Shown piece after piece: positions 3,243-35,567 of a DNA stretch of 64,000 bases. The notes beneath the pieces were generated by a model, which saw nothing but the letters and a program-made list of their open reading frames with translations, was not told the DNA's origin and ran no database searches. The stretch covers positions 1 through 64,000 of the forward strand of contig JACVRA010000082.1 in NCBI GenBank assembly GCA_019828545.1, written 5' to 3'. The DNA is from Paracamarosporium sp. OC-R06-R3. Its lineage: Eukaryota; Ascomycota; Dothideomycetes; Pleosporales; Didymosphaeriaceae. The translations under genes and the position numbers were made by a program. Each line of letters begins with the position of its first letter. Position 1 is the stretch's first letter.

Positions 3243-4343
3243 CTATCCACAACTTTTAAAGTATTCACCTGCGTATTGAACCGCATCCTCGGCCTCCTTT
3301 ATCAGCCCCAACAGACTAGCTGCTAGAATAAGGTCATGCGGCGCGTCTTTGGTCTCTCAGAACGCAACTTTGTTTCCTTCAATATCCTTCATCGTCTTGA
3401 CAAAACTCCGTATCTCGTCGTAAAGCATCTCCGCCGTACCGACATGCAAGAATACCGGAGTCTTGACACTGAAAGGATGCTCACTTGCTATAAGATACCG
3501 CTCATTGTCCCTAGTTTTAGAAATCGGTCGGTAAGCATCCAAAGCCCATTCCACCAAGCCTACGTTCAAAAAATCCGTCTGGAGACTCACACTCCTCCTA
3601 TATATCTCAGGTACCTCATCTGAGATATTCAGCCAAGGTGACCATACCATAGCTCCATGTGGCCGAGGAAGAGTTGCATGTTCTTCGATGTATCGCAGGA
3701 GCTGAAGCACCAGGCTTCCTCCAGCAGAGTCTCCGGAGATGATGATGCGGCTTGCATCTACGCCCTGTTTCAGTATGTAATGATAAAAAGTTACGGCATC
3801 TTGCAGCGCTGCAGGGAGTCTCGAGGATTCGTCCCGAGAAAGTCGGTATTGCGCGTAGAATGTAAAAGCGCCTAGCTTATCACAAAAAATCTTGGATGGT
3901 GCAAGGCCGGTCTGGAGCGGATCGGTGGCAGTTACGAATGCGCCGCCTTGGAAGTGGATTACGACTAGAGATTTCTCTTCAGCATCATTTTGGCGAGGCG
4001 GTAGTGCATCTGGAAACCAAATCGCCGGACCTGGGCTTGGTTTGATCTTCCCGTCGTTAAGAACACCAGTATAGAGCGTTGAAGCGCCTGGCTGGACAAG
4101 AACATAACGGTTCTTCAGTTTGGGACCGGCGTAGAAAGGCTTCAGCTGGACCGCCACCGTGTACTTATAGAACAATCGAAGCCATGCGTTTCCTATCGCG
4201 GTCTTAAATGTCCAACGAGGGATTGGTCGAAATCGCTTTACAGTGTACAGCAAGGAGAGTAGTACTAAGTACGGCGGAGCAAATAGTACTAGGACGATTG
4301 TCATGAGCCCTTTCAAAGGCTGATGGGATAAAAATCGAGCCAT
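3243..4343 (-). pseudogene. alpha/beta-hydrolase (HSL/arylacetamide deacetylase-like) with late premature stop
   Basis: The first 328 codons (4343 to 3360) are open and encode an alpha/beta-hydrolase fold-3 lipase/esterase. There is an N-terminal hydrophobic segment (about residues 13-33), an oxyanion-hole motif HFQGGAF in place of the usual HGGGF, the nucleophile elbow GDSAGGS, and the acidic-residue region HVGTAEMLYDE. A TGA at 3357-3359 then ends the frame. The same frame continues for 37 more codons to a TAG at 3243-3245 and contains DAPHD, the family's catalytic His motif, so the stop removes one of the three catalytic residues. The simplest ancestral codon is CGA (Arg), a C-to-T change. 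I call it a recent pseudogene. Readthrough or a base error in the assembly would restore a protein of 366 residues. The substrate cannot be told. Confidence 0.75.
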
Positions 4344-6647
4344 TGAAACGTTCGCGCGGCGTGTGTTCTTCAGAGCTTAAGATGAAAAATATATGGCAAA
4401 GGGTTGATAGATTGTGAAATTAGAGGGAACTGTAGCAGAAGAAAGTGCGGATGACAAGTTGAGAAGGCCTAGGAGGAATGTTCGTTTATCATTAACTGTT
4501 CGGTGATAGGAACCCTAATCGTTACAAAATCGAGTAAGCATACATTTGTCGGCTATCCGATACGCTCACCGACATGGGATATAAGACGGTTAAATTGATG
4601 CATTTTGCATTCCAATACATGAAGTAGCAAATGAAAAATTCCACTGTAGATGTAAAGCCTCTGTCGAACTCCGAGAATAGATTGCGGCACGGTACCTCCA
4701 ATGTGTTGTGCCGCAAAAAATGCGACACAAGCCATTGACGTGCCGTGCGTGATTCTGATCAAGGTTCATTACCAGTAGCTGATGTTAAAATTTGATCCAG
4801 GGCCTCGCAAAAACAAAAAAAAAAAAGGGAGGGGGGGGGGGTAACCTCTGCGAAATGCATGCAGGACATGTCAATGGTCCCGGAAGTTTCATCGTCACAG
4901 GTGCCACGTATTAGATAAACACCCTCGAGTAACGACTAGTTAAACAGTATACTTTCGCTCTCATATTGAGTGACCTGATGTTTTATCATTCAGTTAACGT
5001 GTCGGTGCTTTGCTCATAATTATCGACTGCATCTGACTGGAAGCTTGACATTGCCACGCGAGTCAGGTGATGGACTGTCATTAGTTATAATCTCTTCTAT
5101 CACCTGCATGACTGTCAACGTGAAGAACCTAGTCGCATCCAGCTACTAGTAGCAGAACCCTGTTAACCCTACTTTTATTCGTTAAGTTATAATCGAAGTT
5201 TTGTCTCATCTCGTCCTGAAACTAATGACGATGCATTTTTGGCGTCTCCAAGGTGTTGTTGAAGAGGAACTGTCCACCAGAAGGTTTCAGTCAAAATTTC
5301 AGCAGACAGTTCAGAAATATTGTCTCGCAAACTTTAAGCCACAGAAAATTGACCTATACATGTATATAACCATTCTCGATTTTATTAACTAGGATCACAT
5401 TCAAATAGAAATCGACGTTTTTGAACGTGGCCGAGACATGAATTGTTGCCAATCCATTCGTTGACTGATTCTTCGCGTGCAAGGAGGGAAATCCATAGAC
5501 TCATTCGGTCATTCTTCGATCCAACATTATGTGGTCTATAGCCTGAACCTGCTAAATAACGTCACCACTCACGCAAGAAATAGATATAAATCGCAACTGT
5601 ATCCTGTGAATGGAACTCTGGTCATGGTAAACGAAGCAGTTCGCCAGCTGTACAGGTACGATACACTTATCAGCGGCTACCGCTTATAGGATGTCATGAT
5701 CGCAAACGCAGCCGTGCTGCCTGATCTAGAAATGATATCGAAGTGCGACTCCATGTGAATTCGAATGGTACCAGAGCACCTCGAGGAAGCGGACACTATA
5801 GCTGGCGCTTCAACATATACATTCTCGACACAGAAATCTTGGCTAGTTCAGTCAGGCTATATTTTTGTTGAGAGCATCCTCCCAAAATCTTCGGTAGTAA
5901 GAAGTGCACTTCGAAGCACAGATCACTTTCTAAAAGAATTTAACATAGGAAAACAAGTGAAATCTAAACTGAAGACTTACCACGCAATGTATTCTATCAA
6001 ATAAGTTGATTTTTTACTTTTTTGGGGGGGAAGGATGATTGAGAAATTGCTTTTCTTGTTTTAGTCAATGTGTGTTGAAAATTTCTTAAACTAAGTCGTC
6101 ATGAGTATTATTCCAGATACCCTCATATTGTCCATGATAGGTTAAAGATCAACCGAACCAGAATTGTCAGTAATGTAGTTTGAGACTTATCGGTCGTATA
6201 GGTAGTCTTTACATCACCCCAATACTGGCGCCTGCAGTCCATGGTTCGAATTAGGAATAACAGATTCTGGGCTACGCAGGTTTTTGATATGCACCTAGGA
6301 GGGAGCCCTCTACATTAGTAACTAGGAACTAGCACATAAAACTAGCACTGCCAAAAAGAAGCACTGCAACCAAGTGCGTCACATCACAATAGGTTCACGG
6401 CAACGTGCACACCATGCACAAGCAAGGATGAGTGGATTTAATCCAGCTATTTTGACCCTTGCATCGGCAAAGCTTCCTTGATAAGTCGCCCTCCATGGCG
6501 GTCTCAAATGTTCATGAACGATGCCATTCCATATGTCCCTAATGTTTGCACGAAAGACCTCAAGGATTCTGCCTCCTACTTCAATTCCAGATCAATGAGC
6601 AACGGTGTCGAGTCTCTCGATGTCAAACTCCCGGTGTCGCGACGTTC
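4344..6647. other. gene-free AT-rich stretch
   Basis: I find no supported gene in these 2.3 kb. There are short open frames without motifs, a poly-A/poly-G tract at 4815-4841, and the upstream region of the minus-strand hydrolase. No DUF3328 (UstYa) HxxHC motif was recognised, although that was looked for because of the peptide precursor next door. Confidence 0.45.
4815..4841. repeat. poly-A/poly-G homopolymer tract
   Basis: A run of 12 A is followed by GGGA and then a run of 11 G. It lies about 470 bp upstream of the hydrolase start. Homopolymers of this kind are prone to length error in sequencing. Confidence 0.8.
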
Positions 6648-7251
6648 CTATTCTTCGGTGATTGCATCTGCTTCCGCCTCACGACCAACAGGTCGCATAG
6701 CCCCCTCTTTTGTATCGCGACGTCCGTAAGGTCGAGTGACTATCGCCTCTGGGTCGCGACGTCCGTAAGGCCGGGTGACTATCGCTTCTGGGTCACGACG
6801 TCCATATGGTCGAGTAACTATGGGTTCTGGGTCGCGACGTCCGTAAGGCCGAGTGACTATCGCCTCTGGGTCGCGACGTCCATATGGTCGAGTGACTATC
6901 GCCTCTGGGTCGCGACGTCCGTAAGGCCGGGTGACTATCGCTTCTGGGTCACGACGTCCATATGGTCGAGTAACTATGGGTTCTGGGTCGCGACGTCCGT
7001 AAGGCCGGGTGACTATCGCCTCTGGGTCGCGACGTCCGTAAGGCCGGGTGACTATCGCTTCCGCCTCGCGAGATTCCAATGTCAAGTCATCGTTCACGTC
7101 TTGCTCATCGATGACAATACCACGTGCTTGCTCCTGCGACCACCATTAGCGTTCGCGAACTAGTCTGTTGACGACAACCTTGACTGACCACTGGAAACGG
7201 AGCAGCGAGAACTGTAAGGCCAAAAATTGCGAGGATAGTTGTGTAGCGCAT
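6648..7251 (-). CDS. secreted Kex2-processed repeat precursor (RiPP/KEP-like), nine IVTRPYG cores
   Basis: Two-exon model: exon 1 at 7251-7189, intron 7188-7134 (donor GTCAGT, branch-like GCTAATG, acceptor CAG), exon 2 at 7133-6648; 182 residues. Exon 1 is a signal peptide (MRYTTILAIFGLTVL, then AAPFPV). A short acidic pro-region follows (EQARGIVIDEQDVNDDLTLES). Then come nine units of exactly 13 residues whose core IVTRPYG never varies, each followed by RR-D. Units are joined by D-P-E-A or D-P-E-P; the first is preceded by EAEA and the tail ends in REAEADAITEE. Known of the family: Kex2 cuts after RR, Ste13-type aminopeptidase trims X-Ala and X-Pro pairs, and Kex1 trims C-terminal Arg. Applied here, every unit would give the same heptapeptide. 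Dikaritin RiPP precursors (ustiloxin, phomopsin, asperipin) and mating-factor precursors share this plan. No UstYa-like gene is visible nearby, so cyclisation is unproven. A donor at 7191 (58-nt intron) also keeps the frame. Confidence 0.8.
6705..7055 (-). repeat. nine 39-bp in-frame tandem repeats
   Basis: The Ile codon of the first unit is at 7055-7053 and that of the ninth at 6743-6741. The distance of 312 bp is exactly eight periods of 39 bp. Units 3-4 and 7-8, counted from the N-terminus, look identical, suggesting duplication of a block. Base differences between units in the core and RR codons are synonymous (for example GTC/GTT, ACC/ACT, CCT/CCA, TAC/TAT). Confidence 0.95.
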
Positions 7252-7896
7252 GTTGTCGGCAATTTGTCGAGTTCAGGTCTTGTATCTGTATGTGACTTGT
7301 TTTTTTCTGTTTAGACGGTGTTAGTGCACAGCACTTTTACGTAGTATTAAAGTAATAAAGTAAACGAAGTTTCGAAAAGATCGTGAGAACAATGAGTGGA
7401 ACCGGTCCCTACTCTGCAAATTCGGGTGACATGTCCATCTTTAACTGTTTGCAAGCTAAACGAGGTGCAATGGTAGAGGGTGCGTGACCTTAGCGTTGAT
7501 TGGCTCTAGGATATCCTGGCCCCACCATTGAAGGCGCCAGCATCAGCTGTTAGCCGCCCGGTAAGGAAACTGAAACATCAGTTTTATTGATGTTGGTGCC
7601 AGAGCCAATAAGATCATAACAAGCGTTATGCACTGCACACTGCCGGCGCTTATGCTCTGTGACTAGCAGACTGCTTTCACTACAGCTATGAGTCTGGCCA
7701 ACACATCTGGTGCTAGAGATCCGTGCATATCCGCTTCACCGGGCCATGGTACCATGGCGGTTTAAGCGAGCGGCTGATGCTGCACCGAACCGTTCAGTGC
7801 TGGTGCTTGGACTATCCTGAAAACTTCCCTAGGTGAAGAGGAACTAAATAGGCAACCACGACTATGAAATGAAAGATTACTAGCTAAAAGAATCTT
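7252..7896. other. upstream region of the repeat-precursor gene
   Basis: No gene is seen. This 645-bp stretch is the presumed promoter of the minus-strand peptide precursor and the 3' flank of the DUF3176 gene, which reads in the same direction. A pyrimidine/purine tract lies at about 7291-7312. No TATA box was evident close to the start. Confidence 0.45.
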
Positions 7897-10654
7897 TTAG
7901 GATTCTTTCCACTCCGGTTGCGGAGGTGTGCGACGAGGTCTAAGAGAGGCTGGCGAGAATGCGCTTGCACCCGAGAGCCTCCATCCAGTCCCAGGAAGCC
8001 ACTTGACCTTCATACGCTTCGCATTCGCTCGCGGTGTTCCCTTAGCTTTTGCAGACGTAACTTTCCTCCTCACATCGTCTGGGAGGCCATAAAGGAGCGT
8101 TGCAATGGCGGAAGTCTTCCAAACGCCGACGTCCTCATTCATCGAGCTTCGAATGATGGTAGCCACCATAAAGACAAAGGTGAAGACGAGCAGGCCAAGA
8201 GGAAGGGAAAGCCATTCCCATCGGACGTCGACAACACTTACAAGGTCGAATGCTGAGCCCTGGACAATCTCGACTGAGGCCTTCGCTGACCTTATTATGT
8301 TCGTAAAATCAGTAGCCAAGTTGTTCATGTGTGCCGTAATATTAGCATAGAGAAACGGATTGTACGTTTCATCCCGTGATTGATAGTAGAGGGTCTTGTA
8401 CTGCTGGAATCGTAATGTAGCCCGAGCCATGTCCGTGGTATTGGCAACCGTGTACGTCGATGGAAATATATCATCAAAAATCGTAAGGATGTTGTTGTGC
8501 GTTTCATTGCTGACCTCGTAACGGTATCCAGTATCCCCCAAAATAGTGATATTCTCATTGTATTCAACACCAACGCCGACGGGCTCATCACCGTCCATGG
8601 TTATAACAACAGTCCATGGATCAAATCCCAGGGTCTTATTGAAGGTTGTAGCCGTAATATTTTCTGTATATGCTCCTTCAAATACGGCTGACTGCATGGT
8701 TTTGACGCACCACTAAAGAACGAGTCTCGAGTCAGCGGATTTGGACGAAGAGGAGAGATCTTTGGCTAGTGCGCATGCATTGTGTAAAAAGATCGAGCGA
8801 CTGAAACATTACTTGACTGATTTTTCGGACGCTTTTTTTAACAAGCTTTAATCTTAGGACACAGGCTTACTTACAGATATTATGCATTCATGCGCTATAG
8901 GGGTTGCATTCTGCCGCACCTGTGTCACATGCTCACCAGAAACAGCGACAAAATGCGATATCGGATTGCGGGTATCGTTGAGCTTTGCTGCGTAACCAGG
9001 AATTGGAGCTCTTGTGAAAATATCGTAAAGAGGCTGTGCGCGTGATAGAAGAACTTCGCCAGTGTGGTTGGTGAAAAGGTCGGAGGTATAGCCAGTCATG
9101 AGAATCGGTTGGTCTGCTTTGAGATACCATCCACAAGCAGTCCCGTTTGGATAGTTCCAACCAGACAAGTCAGGAAGAGCGTTCGGAGCCGGTATCCAGT
9201 CGAGTATGGAATCTTGACATCGAAACTCGAGGCGGTCAGTGATATCCGCGCACCTGTTACATACACTCAGACTTTCGTACTCGGTCCACGTGCAATTATT
9301 ACTTGGGCACGCTAGCGGAATCGCTGGGCTGATCCCGTTACCGTTGCTTGAAGTGACTGGGTTGGTCCCATTGTCATAGAAGTACTGGTATGCTGTTGCC
9401 GACATGGTTTGATCGAGCTCCAGGATGGGTGCATTTTGTTGTAGCAATGTTCCAGCTGTATACGTTCTGTATGTAGTTGCACGTGGAATAGATCCATTCG
9501 CTGGCTGGATTCGCCATTGTTCAGGGAAATCAACGACTTGTTGGAAAAAGGGGTCCATGGCAAGCGCAAAGATAGTAACGGCTGCGCCAAGAGCCGCCAA
9601 TGACGTTCCTTTAGTACGCAATAACAACATAAAGGATCCCCAGGGGCCTCTAGAGGCGTTATCGAACAGCCTAGAGTTGGGCAATAAAGTCAGCGTGAGC
9701 TACTAGAGTAGAAAGATCAAGGTACTAGGCCCGTTGGATTATATGTTTTAAGATGGTAGTTAGTAGAACTGCCTTTACTTACTCAAAATCCCACATCTTC
9801 TTACTTTCCTTGGATTTGTTTCCCTTTGCTTGAAACCAGTTCCATTTTAACTGCCCGAGTGCTTCGGAAACGGGGAGAAGCAGCGCAGCCGAGGCAACCT
9901 TTGCCAGGACCGAGATATACGCGTTCAATGTCAATCCAAGAGGCCATTGCGGTAAAGGTTGACGCTGGTAACAGTACAAAACGATTATGATACCAGTCAT
10001 GCAAAGTGCACTCAAAGTCCAGCTGATGATCTCCATAAGCCATCTTTTCACAACACTTCGAGATGCGCTGTATTTCCACAGTTTCTGTTCGATCCTTTGT
10101 GCGAGATTCGTTGCGCCAAATAGTTCACTAGAGCTTTCCTCCTGGGATTGCGTCTTTTCAGCTTTGTCGGCCCCCTGCGCTTTCTCCGCCGTTCCGGGCG
10201 TTATTGGGCTGACATCGGGTTTAAACGGAGCATCCGGAATGCCGAGACCTATTTGGTTCTGGCGATCAAAACTTTGCTCGGAAATCTGAGGAGAGATGGG
10301 AGAGAAAGCATTCCGACGAAACCGTACTCGATGTGGATGTGTTCCTTCATTAGTTCGATAAGCGGGTGCAGGGCGAATAGGCTTCGACCATTGACCTGAG
10401 GTTTGCAAGTTGAGGATCGGAACAGACAATCTTCCGGGAGATGGTGTTCGTGGAGTCGCGGTATTATAAGGAGGCGGAGCGGGTGATACCGAAATACAGT
10501 GGATAGGTTGATCTTTCGAGCTCGCTGAGCATTTTGGACATATGTGCTCAGGAGATTCGTCGGCTGTCGAAAGCGTTCGATCGTGGGTTGTGTCAAGATA
10601 TATTGGGATATTCGCGTTGCTAAAAGAGACCGGGGAGACGGGAAGGTTCGGCAT
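7897..10654 (-). CDS. DUF3176 family membrane protein
   Basis: Three exons: 10654-9783, 9670-8875 and 8712-7897, with introns showing GTAAGT donors and CTCTAG and TTTAG acceptors; 827 residues in one frame. The N-terminal 190 residues are Pro/Ser-rich and probably cytoplasmic. Then follow the DUF3176 features: the membrane segment WTLSALCMTGIIIVLYCYQ, a second around ISVLAKVASAALLLPVSEAL, the WNWF and DNASRGPWGS region, a third segment TSLAALGAAVTIFALAMDPF, and a long outer loop with several N-glycosylation motifs and paired Cys (CPSNNCTW, SVCNRCADI). After CVKTMQSAVFEGAY comes a last segment WLSLPLGLLVFTFVFMVATII and the tail motif VWKTSAIATLLYGL. The biochemical role of DUF3176 is not known. 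It lies upstream of, and in the same direction as, the repeat precursor, but a functional link is only conjecture. Confidence 0.88.
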
Positions 10655-13073
10655 AGTCCAGCAGGAGCAACTCGCGCAGCAAGATAGTGAAGGTAACGGC
10701 CGTTCAATAGATCAGGAAAATTAATGTAGCGGAGATTTAGCGGTGAGTTGCATCGGCCCTAATCATATGAGGCTCCAGGTTCAGTTGGGTATACAAACGG
10801 GTGGGTCGCTAAGAATAGAAAACATGCTGGGCCGCATGACGGCATGTTGTTGAAGAGTGTGTTCCACATGATTCTCGCTGATCATGCTTCGTACGGTAAC
10901 CTACTATTGTGCAAGCGCTGGGATCAAACACTACCGTGAACGAACAGGGGTTGTGACGGGAAGGATGAAGAGATGCCGCCTGGAAACGCGCGCCAGCCAT
11001 GGCTTGGCGTTAATGCTAATCGTATCTGGTTAGCTCGGCGCTAGCCGCAACGTAAGGCGCTTCTGAGCACATCGGTTATGCAAAGACGCCGCCAATAACA
11101 TCGAGGGCACAGTTAGTAAGAGGAGGATCATCGCCGAAGTAGCGCTTGCTTCCAAATGAGTGGCACCGGTTGCCCTAACACGAAACCCAGGCCACCGATC
11201 AGGCTCCTCGACGGAGCCGCGTCAATTCACAGCCTTACTATATGGAGAGCAGGCAGAACATGCGACAGAAAAGCTAGTGCCATACGCAGCTTACACTGAA
11301 ACATAGCGAAGTAGAGTCTTCGTTTGCGAAGCTATGTGTCATATTCTGAAGGTTTTGGTGAAGCTTGCACCGAGCATCTGAAGGCTGATTACACCTTTGC
11401 TGCACGTCAAAATCTGTCTACGGTCGTTTGACGGTCGTGGACGCCGTAACTGTGCCTCTTAATATTTCGGCATTATGTCGGTCGATCGCCTCAAACGAGA
11501 TATCTTCCTCTGAGAGCCCCGCTTTCAAAGTATACCGTGCCAATCGATTCGTGACTGGAGTGGGCTCCAGCGCCGCCCTTTTCCGCTCTAGGGCCGCCAT
11601 GGGGCCACCGCACGGCGGCAATCCAACAGAAAGCCTCGACTCTCAAGTTCGGCTGAAATTGCGAACATCTCATGGTTGATGTTAAGCTTACCAATCTTCT
11701 TCCTTAACTGAATAACGACTTGCACACTCAGTGGTGATGGTGCTTCTGTAACATTCGCATTAAGTTTTAATACTCTCAAACGCAGAGCTAGAACTCATAC
11801 CACTTTCTCGACATGTTTTCAACGTTTTCTTTGGTGGGACGATGGATAAATCCCGTCGCAGTGTACCTTAAGCTATCATTAAGAAATTAAACGCTTACGA
11901 AAGTCACGTCCCCAGAGACGAAGTCCGTAGTTTGCATCTTTTGATTGGTCAGCTGCCTAGACGCCTCAATGCCCATAGAAAGCCTATCCACCATAGAAAC
12001 AGTAATACTGCTCAATTACATGTTGTGAGAATTCTCAGCGTCTTTAATGTTTCGACTCAAGCCAACATTTCCATAGATCTCGCCGGTGCACCATCGTTTC
12101 TGTTTCCTAGGTCCGAAGACAAATCACATAACCTAGACGGATTTTATTTGTTCAACCAAGTCTGCCACCTAAAAGTTAGTATAGTACAATATTCTACAAC
12201 TTATTGCTGCATCATGAATAACAAAGCCTCCCAGTTACTGCTATCTACATGATTAAAAATTTAAACAATGGAACAAAGTACGCTGGTCTGCTCTGCCGAT
12301 CTTTGAACCCAAAATATCCCGGACGGCATGCAAAGCTCATTATTGTAACAAGAGCACTGGCACATGTCAGTAAAGGCTTGATTATGATCTGAAGTGGCGT
12401 GTGGCGTATGCAGGATGGTGAAGGGAGCCATGGTGGTTTGAGTCACAAGGCCAAACTTGTTTAACACCATGCCGATATGCTCGGGCGCCCACGAATATTG
12501 TTACACATTTGGGGTTTTTCTGAAAGTGCCTCCAGACGCGCTAGGCACATTATCTTGCCGGAGGGATGTTGGAAGGTGCTTTAGTGACGTGATTGTCACC
12601 GTCGAGCCTTCCGCCTAACTTCGAGTTGTGATTCTCAGATTAGCCGGATGGCACAGTTTATCTTCTTGATTATACTATCACGTGATAAGTGTTGAAACAG
12701 GATAGGCAAGACACACAGATGAGTTGCTTCTACCACGTCATCGATGAAATCTTAGATAGCGAGATCGCGGTAATGGTCCAGCCAATGAGATTACAGAAGA
12801 AGTGACCCTTGCGGCCCCAGAAATTTGCAATGTCATTTTGCCATTGTCTGTACTTCCTACAGCCTCATTTCTTCTCCTACTACATCCATATCTGTAGATT
12901 GTGGACCTTTCTTGATACTTGATGTAGCGACTTTTATTAACATTGATTGTCCGGATATGTCATAGGAAAACGGCAGCCAAGGGGGAGTCCCATTAGCAAC
13001 TGCTTGATAAGACTTGATAGAAATCCAGATTGTTCAAGGCATATCACTCTAAGTCAAATGTCACTGCCAACGC
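10655..13073. other. gene-free stretch
   Basis: No supported gene in 2.4 kb. A pocket around 11,420-11,690 has overlapping short open frames on both strands, but I could match none to a family. The part next to 10,654 is the presumed DUF3176 promoter. Confidence 0.45.
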
Positions 13074-19552: not shown

Positions 19553-20474
19553 ATGAAGTCGGGGTCTCTTCTCGCGCTCAGCATCGCGTTTGTGAGCGTC
19601 AATGCGCACTGTATGTGCTAAGGCTCTCTCCCCCTTCGTCACCTGCACCACTCTATCGCTCCTAGCATGAAATTGTTAAATAACCAAATCCATTTGCGCA
19701 GATTTCTTCGACCGCCTCATTATAAACAACGACTTCACCCCACCGTGGACTCACATCCGCGCCATCTCCCCACTCCCTCGCACCGACGACGCCTTCATTA
19801 CAGACTACGACTACATCCAGCCGATTGTGGACCCCTCCTCCCCGGACTTGCGCTGCGGCAGAAACGCATCGCGCGCGTGGAATGCACCGAGAACAGTCGT
19901 CATCCACGCAGGAGCCACGCTCGGCTTCGCAGTGAATACCACCGTCGGCCTGCCCATCCCCAACGCGCCCGTCATGCCCTGGGACCGCTGGCCAAACCTG
20001 TACCACCCTGGCCCCCTTACAGTCTGGCTATCTCGCGCGCCGGGCGACGACGTCGGCAGCTACGACGGGTCAGGACCGTGGTTCAAGATTTTGTCCATCG
20101 TGAATCGCACGGCGCAATCTGTCACGCCTGACGACGAGTACACATGGAAACACCAGTGGGGCGCATACGAAGCGCGGTCGTGGAACTTTAGTATTCCGGA
20201 GACAACGCCGCCCGGGGAGTATCTGCTAAGGGTTGAGCATATTTACCCGCTACCTGTGGACTCGCTGCAGGGCGCACAGTTCTATGTTAATTGTGCGCAT
20301 GTGAGGGTTGTTAATGAGGGGGAGGCGAGGGAGCCGGGGGAAGAGTTTAAAGGCAAGTTTCCTGGGGTGTATAGCTTTGGGCAGAGTGAGATTTATCGGT
20401 GGGTGGATGTTGGGAACGAGACGTTTGATATTCGGGATTTTGTGGAGCCGAGGCCTGCGGTGTGGAAGGGGTGA
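19553..20474 (+). CDS. AA9 lytic polysaccharide monooxygenase (formerly GH61)
   Basis: Two exons, 19553-19610 and 19702-20474 (intron donor GTATGT, acceptor GCGCAG); 276 residues. Exon 1 encodes an 18-residue signal peptide ending VSVNA; the next residue is His, so cleavage would expose the N-terminal His needed for the copper histidine brace. The second copper His is in YHPGPLTVWLS. The QFYVNCAHV motif near the C-terminus gives the conserved Gln and the axial Tyr. GSGPWFKI and LRVEHIY also match AA9. The enzyme would be secreted and cleave cellulose or hemicellulose oxidatively with a peroxide or oxygen co-substrate. There is no CBM1 or GPI tail; the protein ends after an acidic and aromatic tail. 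Confidence 0.9.
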
Positions 20475-20600: not shown

Positions 20601-22752
20601 CTACTGTTTCCGTTGGCGTTTCTTCGCCTTCGAAAGCGCCGCTGATATTGCAGCGAGCTCTCCCTCTATGTCTTCATCATCACTGGCGTCGCCATCAGCG
20701 ACAAGGGTTTGCGCGTCTTCATCGTCGCCAACATCTAGCTCAGGGCTTTCGTCCTCGCTGAAACCCTCAAACTCACCATCGTCTTCCTCTTCCTCTTCGT
20801 CTTCATCTTCGTCTTCATCTTCGTCCTTGTCAGCGGTAGCGGCAACGCTCTCAGCAGCCTCGCTGTCAGCACCTCGTTTCCTCTTCCTTGGCATCTCGCC
20901 GAGTTTGCCTTCTCTTCCGTCTACGCCCTTCACAGGTCCGCCAGCCTCGCCCTCGGGAACAGGCGGTGGCGTGAACCACGGGATCTTTCCCCTTATCCAG
21001 TCATTCAACACTATTCTCGCTACAGCATCGAGATCTGGCTCGCCACCCTTAAGCAGTCTACCCATCTTCCTGCACAGCAGCTCAAGAAAGCTTGTAGAAT
21101 CGGTGTATCCTGTGACTTCGTATGTTCTTTGCAGATGTTTCGGCTGTACGCGTCGCAGAACAGCTTCCACATATTGCGCAGGCCATTCGACGTTTTCGAC
21201 TCGGACACTACCTCGTAAGAGGAGTTCTTCGTCGCTGTCCTGTTGGTTGGGGGGAACGATGCCGGGGCAGTCGATGAGGTAGATACGCTTCATGAGAGTA
21301 ATGTATTGCCACACCTTTGTCTCACCAGCGATGGGGGCGACGGTGCACACCGGCTTGTTACGGAGAGTGTTGACGATGGATGACTTGCCCACATTAGGAT
21401 AGCCGATAAGGCCGACGGAGATCTGTTTGCGATCGGAGTGCAATTGGCTGAACTGCCTCAGAAGCGATATCAATGAACCTTTACCAAAGGAGTTGTTGAT
21501 AGATGCGTGGAAGGCGAGAGTCGGGAATTCTTTAGAGAGATGGCGGACCCATGCAGCCTGGAGAACGTCAGTTAAACTCTTTGCATCAACGGTAAACTAG
21601 TTCGTGAAAAAGATGTGTGAAGCGTTACTAAGAGAGCCGCCACAAAGCTGCAGAGCCAGAAGCAATGCAGAGGCAGCCCTCAACTCAAACGGGACACGCA
21701 GACTCTAGCGACTTGCCACCAAAACGGTAGCGCGTCTATCCACGACCATAACGGCCGCGGGGGAGCGAGTCGTTTTTAATCTTCCAAAGATGTAACAGAA
21801 CCAGTCCATAGAGAGGGATAGATCCTTGACTTATCGATGGGATTGAAACGTGGGGAAAAGAGAGTTGAACTTACAGCGACTTTGCTAGGCACCAGGTCAA
21901 CCTTGTTCAGAACGAAGACAAGGTGCTTGTGCGGTGCTTCCTCCCTCAAGTACTTTTCCACCGACCTACACCTGGTGCCGACGGGATCTCTCGCGTCGAT
22001 CACGTGCAGGATAACGTCTGATGAATCGATGACCTTGTACAGTTCGTTCCAGATGCGCTTCGAAGTACCCTTGGAGAAGATGGCTTCGCGAGAAGTGGTC
22101 AACTCGCCAGTCTCATCCTCTTCTTGGCCAGAAGTTCCAGAAAGCAGCTTCGCCTGCTCTAACCGATCCAAGTATTGGTCGTGCATGTCGTCCGTCCTTC
22201 CGGCCAAGCTCTCGATCGAGTCGAAGTCTAGCTTGGGCCGCTTCCTCTGCGCTTTGGGCCCAAACGTCTCGCTGAACGGCTGGCTCTCAACAGCAATCTT
22301 TGCCTGGTGTTCCTTCAGGCCGTTCACATTCTTCTTCTCCTCGATCAACGACATGGGCAGCTTGTTGCGCTTGAGAAGGAACGACGTAGGGTCTGAGGCT
22401 TGCGCCTGCACCGCGGAGCGGAAGGAGTCGAGCGCATCCTGAGAGATGACGCGGGTGTTGTTGAACCACTTGCGGTTCGGCTCCACGCGGGCAATGGGGG
22501 CGTCGCGGCTCTGGTACGAAGCAGCTTTGGTGATGTCACCCCTAGCGTTACGCTGTGCCTTGCCATCCGTGAGGCGCTTGAGGACCTTGACCTTCTTGCC
22601 GGTGCGATAGAAGTTTTCGCCCTTGACTTTGACCTGGGAAGTGTCAGTAGGAAGCCACGCGGGGAAAGGTGTGAGGAGCGCACATTGCCCATGCCATCGC
22701 CGGTCTTGCCCTCGCGCTCCTTGCGGTTCTTTTCCTTCTTGTGGGTACCCAT
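20601..22752 (-). CDS. NOG2: nucleolar GTPase NOG2/GNL2 (60S assembly)
   Basis: Three exons: 22752-22684, 22633-21875 and 21557-20601; 594 residues. The N-terminus is Lys-rich ([12 protein letters not shown]). Then come the NGP1NT-type region ([29 protein letters not shown]) and a circularly permuted GTPase domain: NKVD (G4; [15 protein letters not shown]), then [15 protein letters not shown], then GYPNVGKSS (G1) and DCPG (G3). The C-terminus has WFTPPP and an acidic D/E tract (about 20,770-20,830). NOG2 is an essential GTPase of nucleolar and nuclear pre-60S ribosome maturation. The second intron is 317 nt, long for this window. The gene diverges from the mS26 gene, with 186 bp between start codons. 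Confidence 0.93.
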
Positions 22753-26899: not shown

Positions 26900-28224
26900 C
26901 TAGAAAGCCCCATATGCCCTTATCGGCCTTTGTTTATCCTCATCATTAAGAGTCGATGCACTATCCCCCCCTGGGCTGCCATTGCGTCTTCGCTCGACGG
27001 TAAGATCGCTCGGCTCATTTCTACGTGGCTCACGATCTGTGCGCTCCTCTACAACAGTAGTCGTCACACTCTTGCTGATTCCATGATCCCAACTCCCCGC
27101 GCCTAGTCCATTTTTCAACATTTTCTCTTCGTCTGATTCGCTGCTTTGCCTTCCAGCTGTGACCGTCGTCGTCGTTCCTGACTTGCCAGTCACTGGCTTC
27201 ATTTCGTGATCTGGCATAGGCGTCTGTCTGCCCATCATGCTCCCGAACTTGCTTCCTACGTTTTTACTCCAAGGATTCCCCGTGGACTGCTGTCCTGATC
27301 GAGATAGCAAGAAAGTAGATTTAGCAAGGGGTTTGAGAGTTGCAATGCAGCCAGCTGTGATACCGATGCCGACCTCGACGGTGGTCCAGATGGCAAAGTC
27401 GGTCGTGCGATAGAGGAAGTCGCCCTTGTACGGTTTAAGTGTAGATGTATAAGGGAGGCGGATTATGGTTGCAGTAGAGCCACTATGAAGGTAAGCATCC
27501 TATCAAGGAGCAAAAAATCCTGGTGATAGACTTACATCGCTGCTAACGCAATAACACCGGAAACAATGATCTTCATGCGCTTTCTCATTTGCAGATCTTT
27601 GACAATGAGAATGGGCAAAATGCCAAAAGCCCAGTCCGCAAAAGAATTTAGTCCCGAAACGACGAACGTGAATATCATGACGAGCGACGCATCCAAACAT
27701 TTGCCATGGTGATTGGGGTTCAGGTCCCACCAGTAGGAAATCGGCTTGCACTGAAATATAACCAAGGCCGTATACCCGACACCCAAGAATGCGGCTACGA
27801 CCATGATGAAACGTATAAGCCAGATATGGTACGGATGGACCGTTATGCGCAATAGGAAGAACCCAACAGCCAATTTAAGAAGACAAGTCGATATGGTGTA
27901 GAAGATTTCGCAAAAGTACCAGTAGCGTAGAGCGGTTTGCGCGCTTTCGTCCGTAAGTGCGGAACGGTGTTGACCGGTACCGTGAACTGCGCCGCCAAGT
28001 TGACAGGATAGGTATGCAGTGAAAAATAAGAGAGTCGCGACCATGAGTTTGTCATCTATACCAAACCCTTTCACCAGGGCCGTTCTGATGTATGTTAGTC
28101 ATCAGTTGGCTATGCGGAGGTGAAGATTCACTGACCGGACATAACACCGCAGGCCAACGGTAATCCATGTCAAGATTAAGAAAAGGACGGCTACAGCAGT
28201 TACTTGTCCACTTCGATTCTCCAT
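26900..28224 (-). CDS. Pth11-like integral membrane protein (fungal rhodopsin-domain family)
   Basis: Three exons: 28224-28136, 28084-27536 and 27482-26900, with donors GTCAGT and GTAAGT; 406 residues. Exon 1 starts with a membrane segment (AVAVLFLILTWITVGLRCYV). Exon 2 has KGFGIDDKLMVATLLFF, YWYFCEIFYTISTCLLKLAV, FFLLRITVH, a CKPISYWWD loop and GKCLDASLVMIFTF. Exon 3 opens with GSTATIIRLPY and WTTVEVGIGITAGCIATLKP, the closing signature of the seven-helix fungal rhodopsin-domain family (PF20684). The C-terminal tail (about 120 residues) is hydrophilic, Ser/Thr/Glu-rich and probably cytoplasmic. No CFEM domain precedes it. Related Pth11 proteins sense surfaces or chemicals; the ligand here is unknown. 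Confidence 0.88.
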
Positions 28225-32999: not shown

Positions 33000-35567
33000 T
33001 CATGCACCCAACACATTAACCTGCTTCTGCACCTTCAGGTCCCTGGAGCTCTCGCCCACCCAGATGCTGAATTCTCCACTGGGCACGACCCACTCTTGCT
33101 GGATGATATCCCAATAGCTTAGATCCCGCCTGAGGAGTTCAAAGCTCACAGTCTGGGTCTCGTTGGCGTTGAGGTAGATCTTCTCGAAGCCACGCAGTTG
33201 CTTGACAGGAGTACCTTCGGGCGCGGAGGAAGGCAGTCCGAGGTAGAGCTGAGGAACCGCGGCGCCGCCTACCTTCCCGGTGTTCGATACGCTGACGGTG
33301 ACATTGTAAAGCGGCGTCCAAAGATCGGGGTTACCCCCAGGCTGGGCAGCCTGCTGGACAGGTAGCGCAGAGATATTGGAGGCGAGCGGTTCGGCGGTGA
33401 TGTCTGCGATCTCGAAGGTGGTGTAGCTGAGGCCGAAACCAAACTCGTAGCGCACGGAAATGTTGTGTGCATCAAAGTACCTGTAATCGATTTCGAGCTT
33501 CTCGTCGAACCAGGATTGCCAGTCGTAGTAACCCGTAGTATTGATGGCGGTCGTAGGAGGTGCGTTGTAATCGCTTCCATTGAGCGCGATGGTGTACGGC
33601 AGATGACCTGATGGGTTCACATCACCGTACAGGATGTCAACGAGCGAGTGGCCGGATTCCTGGCCTGGGAAGTGCGCAGCGAGGATGGCGGTAACGTTCT
33701 CGTGGTCGGCCCATGGGAGCACGTTAATGCCGGAAGAGTGAGTGACAACGACGGTATTGTTGCACTTTGAGGCGACGGACTCGACGACGGCGTCTCCGTT
33801 CCAGTCAACGTGGAGAGAAGCACGATCGGCACCCTCTTCAGCCCAGGTCTTGAGCATTACGATGCAGACTTCGGGACGATCAGGAATGAGTAGGGTGTCG
33901 ATGTCGGTGTCGGCGATGAGCGTGTTGTTGAGCCAGTACTGCACAATCTTTGCGTTGTCCTGGGCGGCGCGATCCTGGATAGCGCGCAGAGGAGTCACGA
34001 CATAAGTCAATTGGCCTGTGCCGGAACCACCGCCAGCAACGAGGGTGCCATATTCGTACTTTTTCTGGTTGAGCTGACCTTGGGTGGGTTCCGCAGCATC
34101 ATTGCCAAAAATTGCAATGTTTTTGGGAGCCTTGAGGGGAAGAGTGCCATTCACGTTCTTAAGCAGAACAGTACCGGCCGCGCCGTGCTTTCGAATAAGA
34201 CTACCATGGTCACCACGAACGTCACGGCTGGATTCGCCGGTAAGATTGAACTCACGCGTCCACGTGGTGGGGGGAGAGAACGTGTTCAACTCGGCCGTGG
34301 ATGGGTCAACAGTAGGGAAGTCCTTGTCTTGTCCGAGGGCGAAATAGGGTGTCAAGATACGAATAATCATGTCGTCAACGCGAGATTCGGCCAAGGTGCC
34401 GTTGTTGACGGCGCGTGTGATGTTACCGCCAAAGAAGGAGGGCATAGGATAATCAGCATCCTCTGCGAAAGCAGTGCCGTACGCGCCGAGACCGCCGGGC
34501 ATGTCCATATCTTGACCAGCCTCAATACCGGCGACACCAGTGTGAGTTGCGCCCCAGTCAGACCTAGTCAATGCCAGTCAGTGAATGTTCCTTAAGTTTT
34601 CGACATCCATAGCACTTACATCACGTAGCCTTGGAAGCCAAGCTCAGTCTTGAGCAAACCATTCAAAGTTTTCGAGTTCTGGCATCCGTAACTACCGTTG
34701 ATCCTCGTGTACGAACACATGAAGCTTGCAACCTTGGCACGTGCAGCGTCTGCAAATGGCCAGAGGTAGAGCTCGTGCATAGTCCTATCATCGAGATTGG
34801 AAGAAATGGCCGCAGAGATGGTATCCGTATCAGTGCCATTGGGGTTGAATATCGGGTTACGCTGAGTCTCCTGCTCATTTGCGATGTAGTGCTTTGCACA
34901 GGCCTGGACACCCGCATCCTGCGTACCAGTGATTGTCTCCTTCATGAAAACACCGGCAAGGTAAGGATCAGCAGCAGAACCCTCCCAGTTGCGGCCAGCG
35001 TAGCCAGAGCGGCCAAGAGGACCAGCAACAGGCTGAAGCGCGACGTGGGCGCCCTTGGCCTTGAACTCCTGGCCCATGGCGTATCCGCGCTCGTACATGA
35101 GAGCCTTGTCCCATGATGCTCCGGCGGAGACACCTGCAGAGAAGGTGCTGGCGTAGTCTGCTACGCGGATAGCAAGCGGCCCATCCTGAAGACAAAGACC
35201 GGGGAAGCCAAGGCGAGGAATGGCGACGGTGTTGCCAACGCAGGGACCAGCTTGACCCGAGACCATATCGGCCTTCTCCTCAATGGTGAGTTGGGCTACG
35301 AAGTCCTTGGCCTTCTGCAGGGCGTCTTCCCAGCCACCCGTTCCGGTTGCATTGGCTGTTTCCAATTAGCTCATCTCTCCTCCACAGCTACTACGTCGAA
35401 AACTTACGAGAAGGATAGACAGCGGGCGAAGAGCCATACTCATTGAGAATCGTCGTGTTCAGTGGCTGTATGTATTCGAACGCATCTTCTCCTCTTGAAC
35501 CACCGCTGAAGTCCTGAGCATACACTAGGGCCGAACCCGCAAGCAAGACAGAGAGAAGAGTCGCCAT
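33000..35567 (-). CDS. GH3 beta-glucosidase, secreted
   Basis: Three exons: 35567-35408, 35355-34620 and 34563-33000; 819 residues. Exon 1 encodes a signal peptide ([18 protein letters not shown]). The GH3 N-terminal barrel shows [27 protein letters not shown] (typical GRNWEGF-like), KHYIANEQE and, across the second intron, [12 protein letters not shown], where the Asp (about residue 301) is the catalytic nucleophile. The C-terminal sandwich domain has [20 protein letters not shown] and [21 protein letters not shown] fibronectin III-like domain closes the protein ([35 protein letters not shown]). It would hydrolyse cellobiose and other beta-glucosides outside the cell. Several N-glycosylation sequons are visible. 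The start is the only ATG next to the signal peptide. Confidence 0.94.

Follow-up and report, generated by a model that had tools for sequence, protein, structure and literature searches.

A nine-unit repeat precursor gene of Paracamarosporium sp. OC-R06-R3, predicted to release the heptapeptide IVTRPYG, and a paralogue with different cores

Analysis of a window of 64,000 bases (C325:1-64000, on a contig of 171,435 bp in a genome of 43.09 Mb and 337 contigs) identified, on the minus strand at 7251-6648, what on its sequence is a real gene with sound anatomy. We consider it probable that this gene encodes a Kex2-processed repeat protein (KEP) from which the unmodified linear heptapeptide IVTRPYG would be released in eight, perhaps nine, copies per precursor, and that the peptide would serve a role other than mating. 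As a sequence the precursor is novel, although its kind is ordinary; what surprises is its sister gene on another contig. Two sister genes that share leader, intron and flanks and carry different cores are a natural test of which part (leader, promoter or core) carries the function, and the pair also informs how new secreted peptides arise. IVTRPYG itself is a candidate ligand that is small and easy to synthesise.

The precursor gene and its repeat units

The two exons of the gene, of 63 and 486 nt, are separated by a 55-nt intron and together encode 182 residues in the order MRYTTILAIFGLTVLAAPFPV-EQARGIVIDEQDVNDDLTLESR-EAEA-IVTRPYG-RR-(DPEA/DPEP-IVTRPYG-RR)x8-DTKEGAMRPVGREAEADAITEE. The signal-type exon, the intron borders and the nine 13-residue units are as claimed in the original prediction, with which the coordinates agree, and the leader and intron are further supported by the paralogue described below. 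Exon 1 (7189-7251) comprises the start codon and the signal-type peptide MRYTTILAIFGLTVLAAPFPV, 14 of whose 21 residues are identical in the paralogue exon MRYSLIIATFALTVLAAPLPL; by inspection, the segment MRYTTILAIFGLTVLAAP has a basic start followed by a hydrophobic stretch, and a similar segment is present in the paralogue. The phase 0 intron (7134-7188) reads GTCAGT...CTAAT...GCAG and recurs in the paralogue at the same place and with the same length, 45 of 55 bases being identical. Its branch site is similar to the consensus CTRAY, and both this feature and the GT...GCAG borders are found again in the paralogue intron. Exon 2 (6648-7133), as read from the DNA, holds a pro-region, the nine units, a C-terminal tail and the stop codon. 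The pro-region EQARGIVIDEQDVNDDLTLESREAEA (7056-7133; the paralogue matches it at 24 of 26 residues) has a monobasic SR site before EAEA, and this EAEA is counted also as the spacer of unit 1, the first of nine tandem 39-bp units of the form (EAEA/DPEA/DPEP)-IVTRPYG-RR that a tandem-array scan and a pattern search placed at 6717-7067. The tail DTKEGAMRPVGREAEADAITEE and the stop codon occupy 6648-6716, and the end of the tail resembles a truncated ITEQYE unit of the paralogue.

Each of the nine units is 13 residues long and all are identical in IVTRPYG-RR, so that 117 of the 182 residues of the precursor are repeat. The spacers (EAEA once, DPEA six times and DPEP twice) all consist of two X-A/X-P dipeptides; with RR after all nine cores, this bears out the earlier description of a precursor of the KEP type that carries Kex2 and Ste13 signatures. 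The array scored 653, the highest of any tandem array in the window, the sole other being a simple repeat at 20.8 kb with a best score of 74, and a search for the IVTRPYG-RR pattern (with CGN arginines) found these nine places and no others across the 43.09 Mb of the genome, and none in a reversed control. From this top score and the confinement of the pattern to nine places, we conclude that the array is not due to chance. A four-unit period of 156 bp inside it indicates that the units are related by duplication. The count of nine comes from the contig assembly, and the true copy number may differ; the repeats of the paralogue hold a gap of 87 N.

Unit 1 is preceded by ESR, a single arginine and not a dibasic site (the paralogue has NSR there), so that eight copies lie between two dibasic sites and release of the ninth would need a monobasic cut. 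An in-silico digest, in which the chain was cut after KR/RR, stripped of X-A/X-P and trimmed of K/R, with the signal peptide removed after residue 17, a position set by hand, gave eight free IVTRPYG peptides (computed monoisotopic mass 804.45), one still joined to the leader, and the tail. The nine-copy release that had been proposed therefore stood in respect of nine identical cores, each followed by RR, but not in respect of their flanks, since only eight lie between dibasic sites; judged from the sequence, eight predicted copies are certain and nine are possible.

A paralogue with different cores

A search of the genome with the precursor revealed a second gene on the minus strand of contig C244 (105,848 bp), with its ATG at 28217. 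The leaders of the two genes are identical at 38 of 47 residues. Upstream of the window gene, the region 7252-7670 is homologous to that of the paralogue, the two sequences agreeing in 325 of 409 aligned columns (79.5%, against a mean of 61.6% and a maximum of 65.8% in 50 shuffles); identity over the next 420 bases upstream is 60.4%, which is the shuffled level. On the 3' side, flank alignment showed the region 6318-6565 to be homologous as well, the flank matching the paralogue in parts (73.7% over 247 columns). When the upstream-plus-leader DNA was used as query, the genome gave no match at E<=10 beyond these two loci. Further 3' of the window gene, about 660 bases (5654-6317) have no counterpart at the corresponding position of the paralogue, which reflects either an insertion here or a loss there.

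The cores of the C244 gene, all of which stand before RR, are GTAPYRSY (one copy), [IV]TEQ[YH]E (three copies) and (K/G)NASTRPA (five complete copies). Pieces of NASTRPA also flank, on both sides, the gap within the repeats, which is given as 87 N; the two sides lie in different frames, and the intact state of the gene is in doubt. NASTRPA, the most repeated of these cores, is without Tyr, and the C244 cores lack a terminal Gly. The spacers are mostly not pure X-A/X-P (EEEAEA, EPGN), so processing common to both genes cannot be assumed. Taken together, the two loci are a predicted two-gene family with one leader and different cores.

The two genes also resemble each other at their ends. The last residues of the window gene, AITEE, and the letters for ERR that follow past the stop codon resemble the ITEQYE-RR unit of the paralogue, and 43 bases are identical over a 49-base stretch of this end and that unit. 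The last residues of the paralogue, EITRPY, followed past the stop codon by RR, resemble in a short match the IVTRPYG-RR unit of the window gene. This suggests an ancestor with mixed units, of which each gene would have amplified a different one, a reading drawn from two genes and from short motifs that may match by chance. We tentatively raise the possibility, which we hold to be somewhat short of even, of a core-exchange family in which leader, intron and promoter are kept and the peptide is replaced via amplification of a minor ancestral unit. If this were true, sister genes under similar control would send different signals, and the secreted vocabulary could be changed quickly, for example in the recognition of a partner or host. 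According to the survey by Umemura (PMC7329392), two or more types of repeat are often present in a KEP, and core combinations vary among species in some genera; these varying combinations come close to the core-exchange idea. KEP paralogues with exchanged cores were not reported in those portions of the literature that the search covered.

Proposed processing and product

In the processing that we propose, the precursor would be routed into the secretory pathway and cleaved by Kex2 behind every RR. A dipeptidyl aminopeptidase of the Ste13 type would then remove the spacers DP-EA, DP-EP or EA-EA, and Kex1 the arginines, to leave linear IVTRPYG. The peptide would most likely act extracellularly, as a means of communication with other cells or organisms; we do not take it for an alpha mating pheromone. 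We infer in this way expression, secretion, the three cleavages, the lack of modification and the role. In a published KEP study, strains without six KEPs are described as having no evident phenotype in axenic culture, and a biotic role is proposed by its authors.

The original prediction had allowed for either the heptapeptide or a form cyclised through Tyr, and had seen no UstYa-type gene near the precursor. The latter observation holds and extends to all of both contigs: UstYa matches counted exon by exon number 75 in the genome (74 above the cut-off), and none of the 75 falls on C325 (171 kb) or C244 (106 kb), one side of the window gene being short for such linkage as the gene lies 6.6 kb from the contig end. 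We regard it as unlikely that the product is a dikaritin-type RiPP, in which an oxidase of the UstYa type, from another locus in the genome, cyclises the core via Tyr. The core does contain Tyr, the genome has its 75 UstYa matches, and four of its repeat arrays have UstYa no more than 3 kb away; but the linked arrays sit at 0.8-3 kb, whereas C325 and C244 are without UstYa, and the commonest core of the paralogue, NASTRPA, lacks Tyr. Among the matches listed for a combined Kex2 and Ste13 pattern (see below), the linked arrays are those on C163, C54, C110 and C200, and the arrays on C17 and C81 have no UstYa on their contigs. These belong to seven stretches picked by eye, C17, C54, C81, C163 and C281 for at least three clustered matches to this pattern and C110 and C200 partly for the nearby UstYa; among the matches listed, two of four loci are linked if loci are chosen regardless of UstYa and C163 and C281 are taken as one. 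For comparison, 22% of KEPs have a DUF3328 gene within 15 genes, and almost no pheromone does, in the survey by Umemura (PMC7329392). The linear heptapeptide is thus favoured and the cyclic form loses weight, since four other arrays are UstYa-linked and this pair is not. The pair would most likely yield linear peptides, and an unlinked UstYa protein could act on the Tyr.

Seventy-five exon-level UstYa matches seem a large number for one genome. C163:1-500 and C281:1-500 carry an APAYVWASSS array, apparently split over two contig ends, with UstYa on C163; the core resembles the YVW[G/A][G/S] motif given in PMC6339444. The arrays AATYAPLVYVGGLK (C54:20400-21100) and NTRVNGSQNYTGPGNG (C110:72300-72950) each have UstYa within about 2 kb, as does an array with the core QWYDLTYID (C200:20200-20700). 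In the stretch read at C81:727200-728000 there are 18 RGSN-KR/RR units with AVRGSN cores, whose spacers are partly EAEA and elsewhere acidic.

It is quite improbable that the gene is a decaying duplicate, or that its open frame is a by-product of tandem repetition and not an expressed precursor. Both paralogues do end in apparently truncated units, and the plus-strand frame across the array is also free of stops, but it is without the third-position support of the precursor frame. In the core and RR, six bases vary between units, all at synonymous third positions; the chance of six out of six is about 0.001 (site-proportional), the six being not fully independent as the units are duplicates. 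Over the whole unit, 10 of the 12 variable bases are at third positions of the precursor frame, and the remaining two fall on first positions of spacer codons, where the E/D and A/P swaps preserve the X-A/X-P form. Comparison of the 47-residue leader with that of the paralogue gave dN 0.111 and dS 0.474, based on few differences (11 non-synonymous, 12 synonymous). The pro-region alone is constrained (dN 0.051, dS 0.490) and exon 1 alone less so (dN 0.200, dS 0.458), and the splice borders are conserved. A Pfam LMSTEN match on the exon-2 frame was rejected as a composition artefact, as no stretch of it passes alone.

Mating pheromone candidates in the genome

The genome has a single match for the STE2 receptor, on C282, which is 74-76% identical to the proteins of Karstenula rhodostoma and Paraphaeosphaeria sporulosa, the best named matches (two other proteins reach 77% and 76%); both species belong to the Didymosphaeriaceae (Massarineae, Pleosporales). 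That IVTRPYG is the alpha mating pheromone and ligand of this receptor is very improbable. Le Marquer et al. (PMC6339444) give PYG[L/M]P[I/V]G for the alpha pheromones of Pleosporales, and report pheromones with two cysteines from the other Dothideomycetes in their study. PYG is common to this motif and the core, all nine units bear the full Ste13 signature, and the genome is without a PYGxPxG cluster. However, in IVTRPYG the PYG is followed directly by RR and not by the rest of the motif; a diverged paralogue with other cores fits a pheromone poorly; and spacers like X-A/X-P occur also in the UstYa-linked arrays of this genome and are therefore not specific. A better fit is provided by a precursor at C17:150500-151500, MKFTTAIAVAILGAGVYG..., which has four copies of NCRFPGMPCS and two of PGQPIG, KR sites and X-A/X-P spacers. 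It reads as alpha-pheromone-like and would mix the two published Dothideomycete types. Given this separate precursor, IVTRPYG is probably not the mating pheromone.

Pattern searches of the whole genome covered both pheromone types. PYG[L/M/I/F]P[I/V/M]G had no matches, and the looser PYGxPxG had 20, all isolated and in no cluster, compared with 34 in a reversed control. The pattern C-x3-GQ-x-C matched 242 times against 144 in the control and was unspecific, at least for the first ones inspected among the matches listed, while W-C-x3-GQ-x-C matched eight times against three, and none of the eight, all of which were translated, lies in a repeat array. A combined Kex2 and Ste13 pattern was found at 109 places against 83 in the control, with clusters among the matches listed (contigs to C302); it excludes the CGT/CGC-R sites of the window gene and is to that extent without a positive control here.

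An end in G-R-R is the layout of amidated animal peptides. A product IVTRPY-amide, with the Gly before RR as amidation signal, is scarcely credible, for although nine of nine cores end in G-R-R, the amidating enzyme PAM is reported missing throughout fungi (PMC6529398), the C244 cores have no final Gly, and Pleosporales pheromones (PMC6339444) likewise end in Gly.

Relation to known precursors

A search of 5.8 billion proteins, many of them from Pleosporales, returned no homologue of the precursor at E<=10 among the best 7997 candidates by shared words, in a whole-precursor search that could pass over homologues with other cores; with residues 1-50 as query there was likewise none at E<=10 (two candidates). 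In the literature searched, IVTRPYG was not found, although relatives in the supplementary tables of KEP surveys are possible; RPYG together with Kex2 gave no match; and TRPYG, RPYGRR and four PYGxPxG spellings matched only items with titles on other subjects. Within these two sources, the earlier statement that no described fungal peptide has this core remains valid.

The rule for KEPs in PMC6339444 calls for at least three similar repeats separated by KR, RR or KK that account for no less than 15% of the protein; here there are nine units, each with RR, covering 117 of 182 residues. The precursor resembles the KEPs of PMC6339444 and PMC7329392 in its putative signal peptide, tandem repeats with RR, short cores and Ste13-type dipeptides, and differs from them in that its homologue was found only in its own genome and that this paralogue has the same leader with other cores. 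With ascomycete alpha-pheromone precursors it has in common the Kex2 site, the X-A/X-P dipeptides and identical short peptides, but its seven-residue core is different and without the P[I/V]G end, and the C17 gene fits better. The dikaritins (ustiloxin, phomopsin, asperipin-2a) likewise derive from repeat precursors that Kex2 cuts and whose cores contain Tyr, whereas here no UstYa lies on the contig of either family member. The KEP 490115 of the basidiomycete C. cinerea (PMC9769878) is alike in RR sites, XA/XP removal and linear short peptides; it is from another phylum, one of its cores, QMRPPSW, is dissimilar, and it has been seen as a peptide, whereas IVTRPYG is known as a predicted one. 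PMC7329392 counts 7878 KEPs, which come from 1345 of the 1461 strains and of which 2560 have no homologue, and most KEPs have no known function according to PMC9769878.

Other genes in the window

Beside the precursor gene lies an alpha/beta hydrolase frame (Pfam) at 3357-4376 on the minus strand. An alpha/beta hydrolase as common neighbour of both repeat genes was considered and rejected: the two proteins are unrelated (E 0.23) and the C244 one has no Pfam match, and so no shared cluster is claimed. Frames on the minus strand at 7897-10711 include two that match DUF3176 (8857-9699 and 9782-10711) and one without a match (7900-8712). Further along are a sulfotransferase at 13.1-13.9 kb and an amine-oxidase-like frame at 16.1-17.3 kb. 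No marker of a peptide-modifying cluster was seen among the window frames run on Pfam, namely 40 of the 120 stop-to-stop frames of at least 110 residues, a set in which short or split genes could be missed.

Several other features were noted in passing. An snR191 H/ACA snoRNA (Rfam, 60.3 bits) is located at 21611-21842 on the minus strand, between NGP1NT and MMR_HSR1 frames, and apparently lies in an intron of what we take to be a NOG2-like gene, as in yeast. A fungal rhodopsin domain (PF20684) is found at 26903-28098 on the minus strand, with one frame over the cut-off and the next just under it. A frame for an AA9 lytic polysaccharide monooxygenase occupies 19680-20471 on the plus strand, and glycoside hydrolase family 3 frames lie at 33003-35365 on the minus strand.
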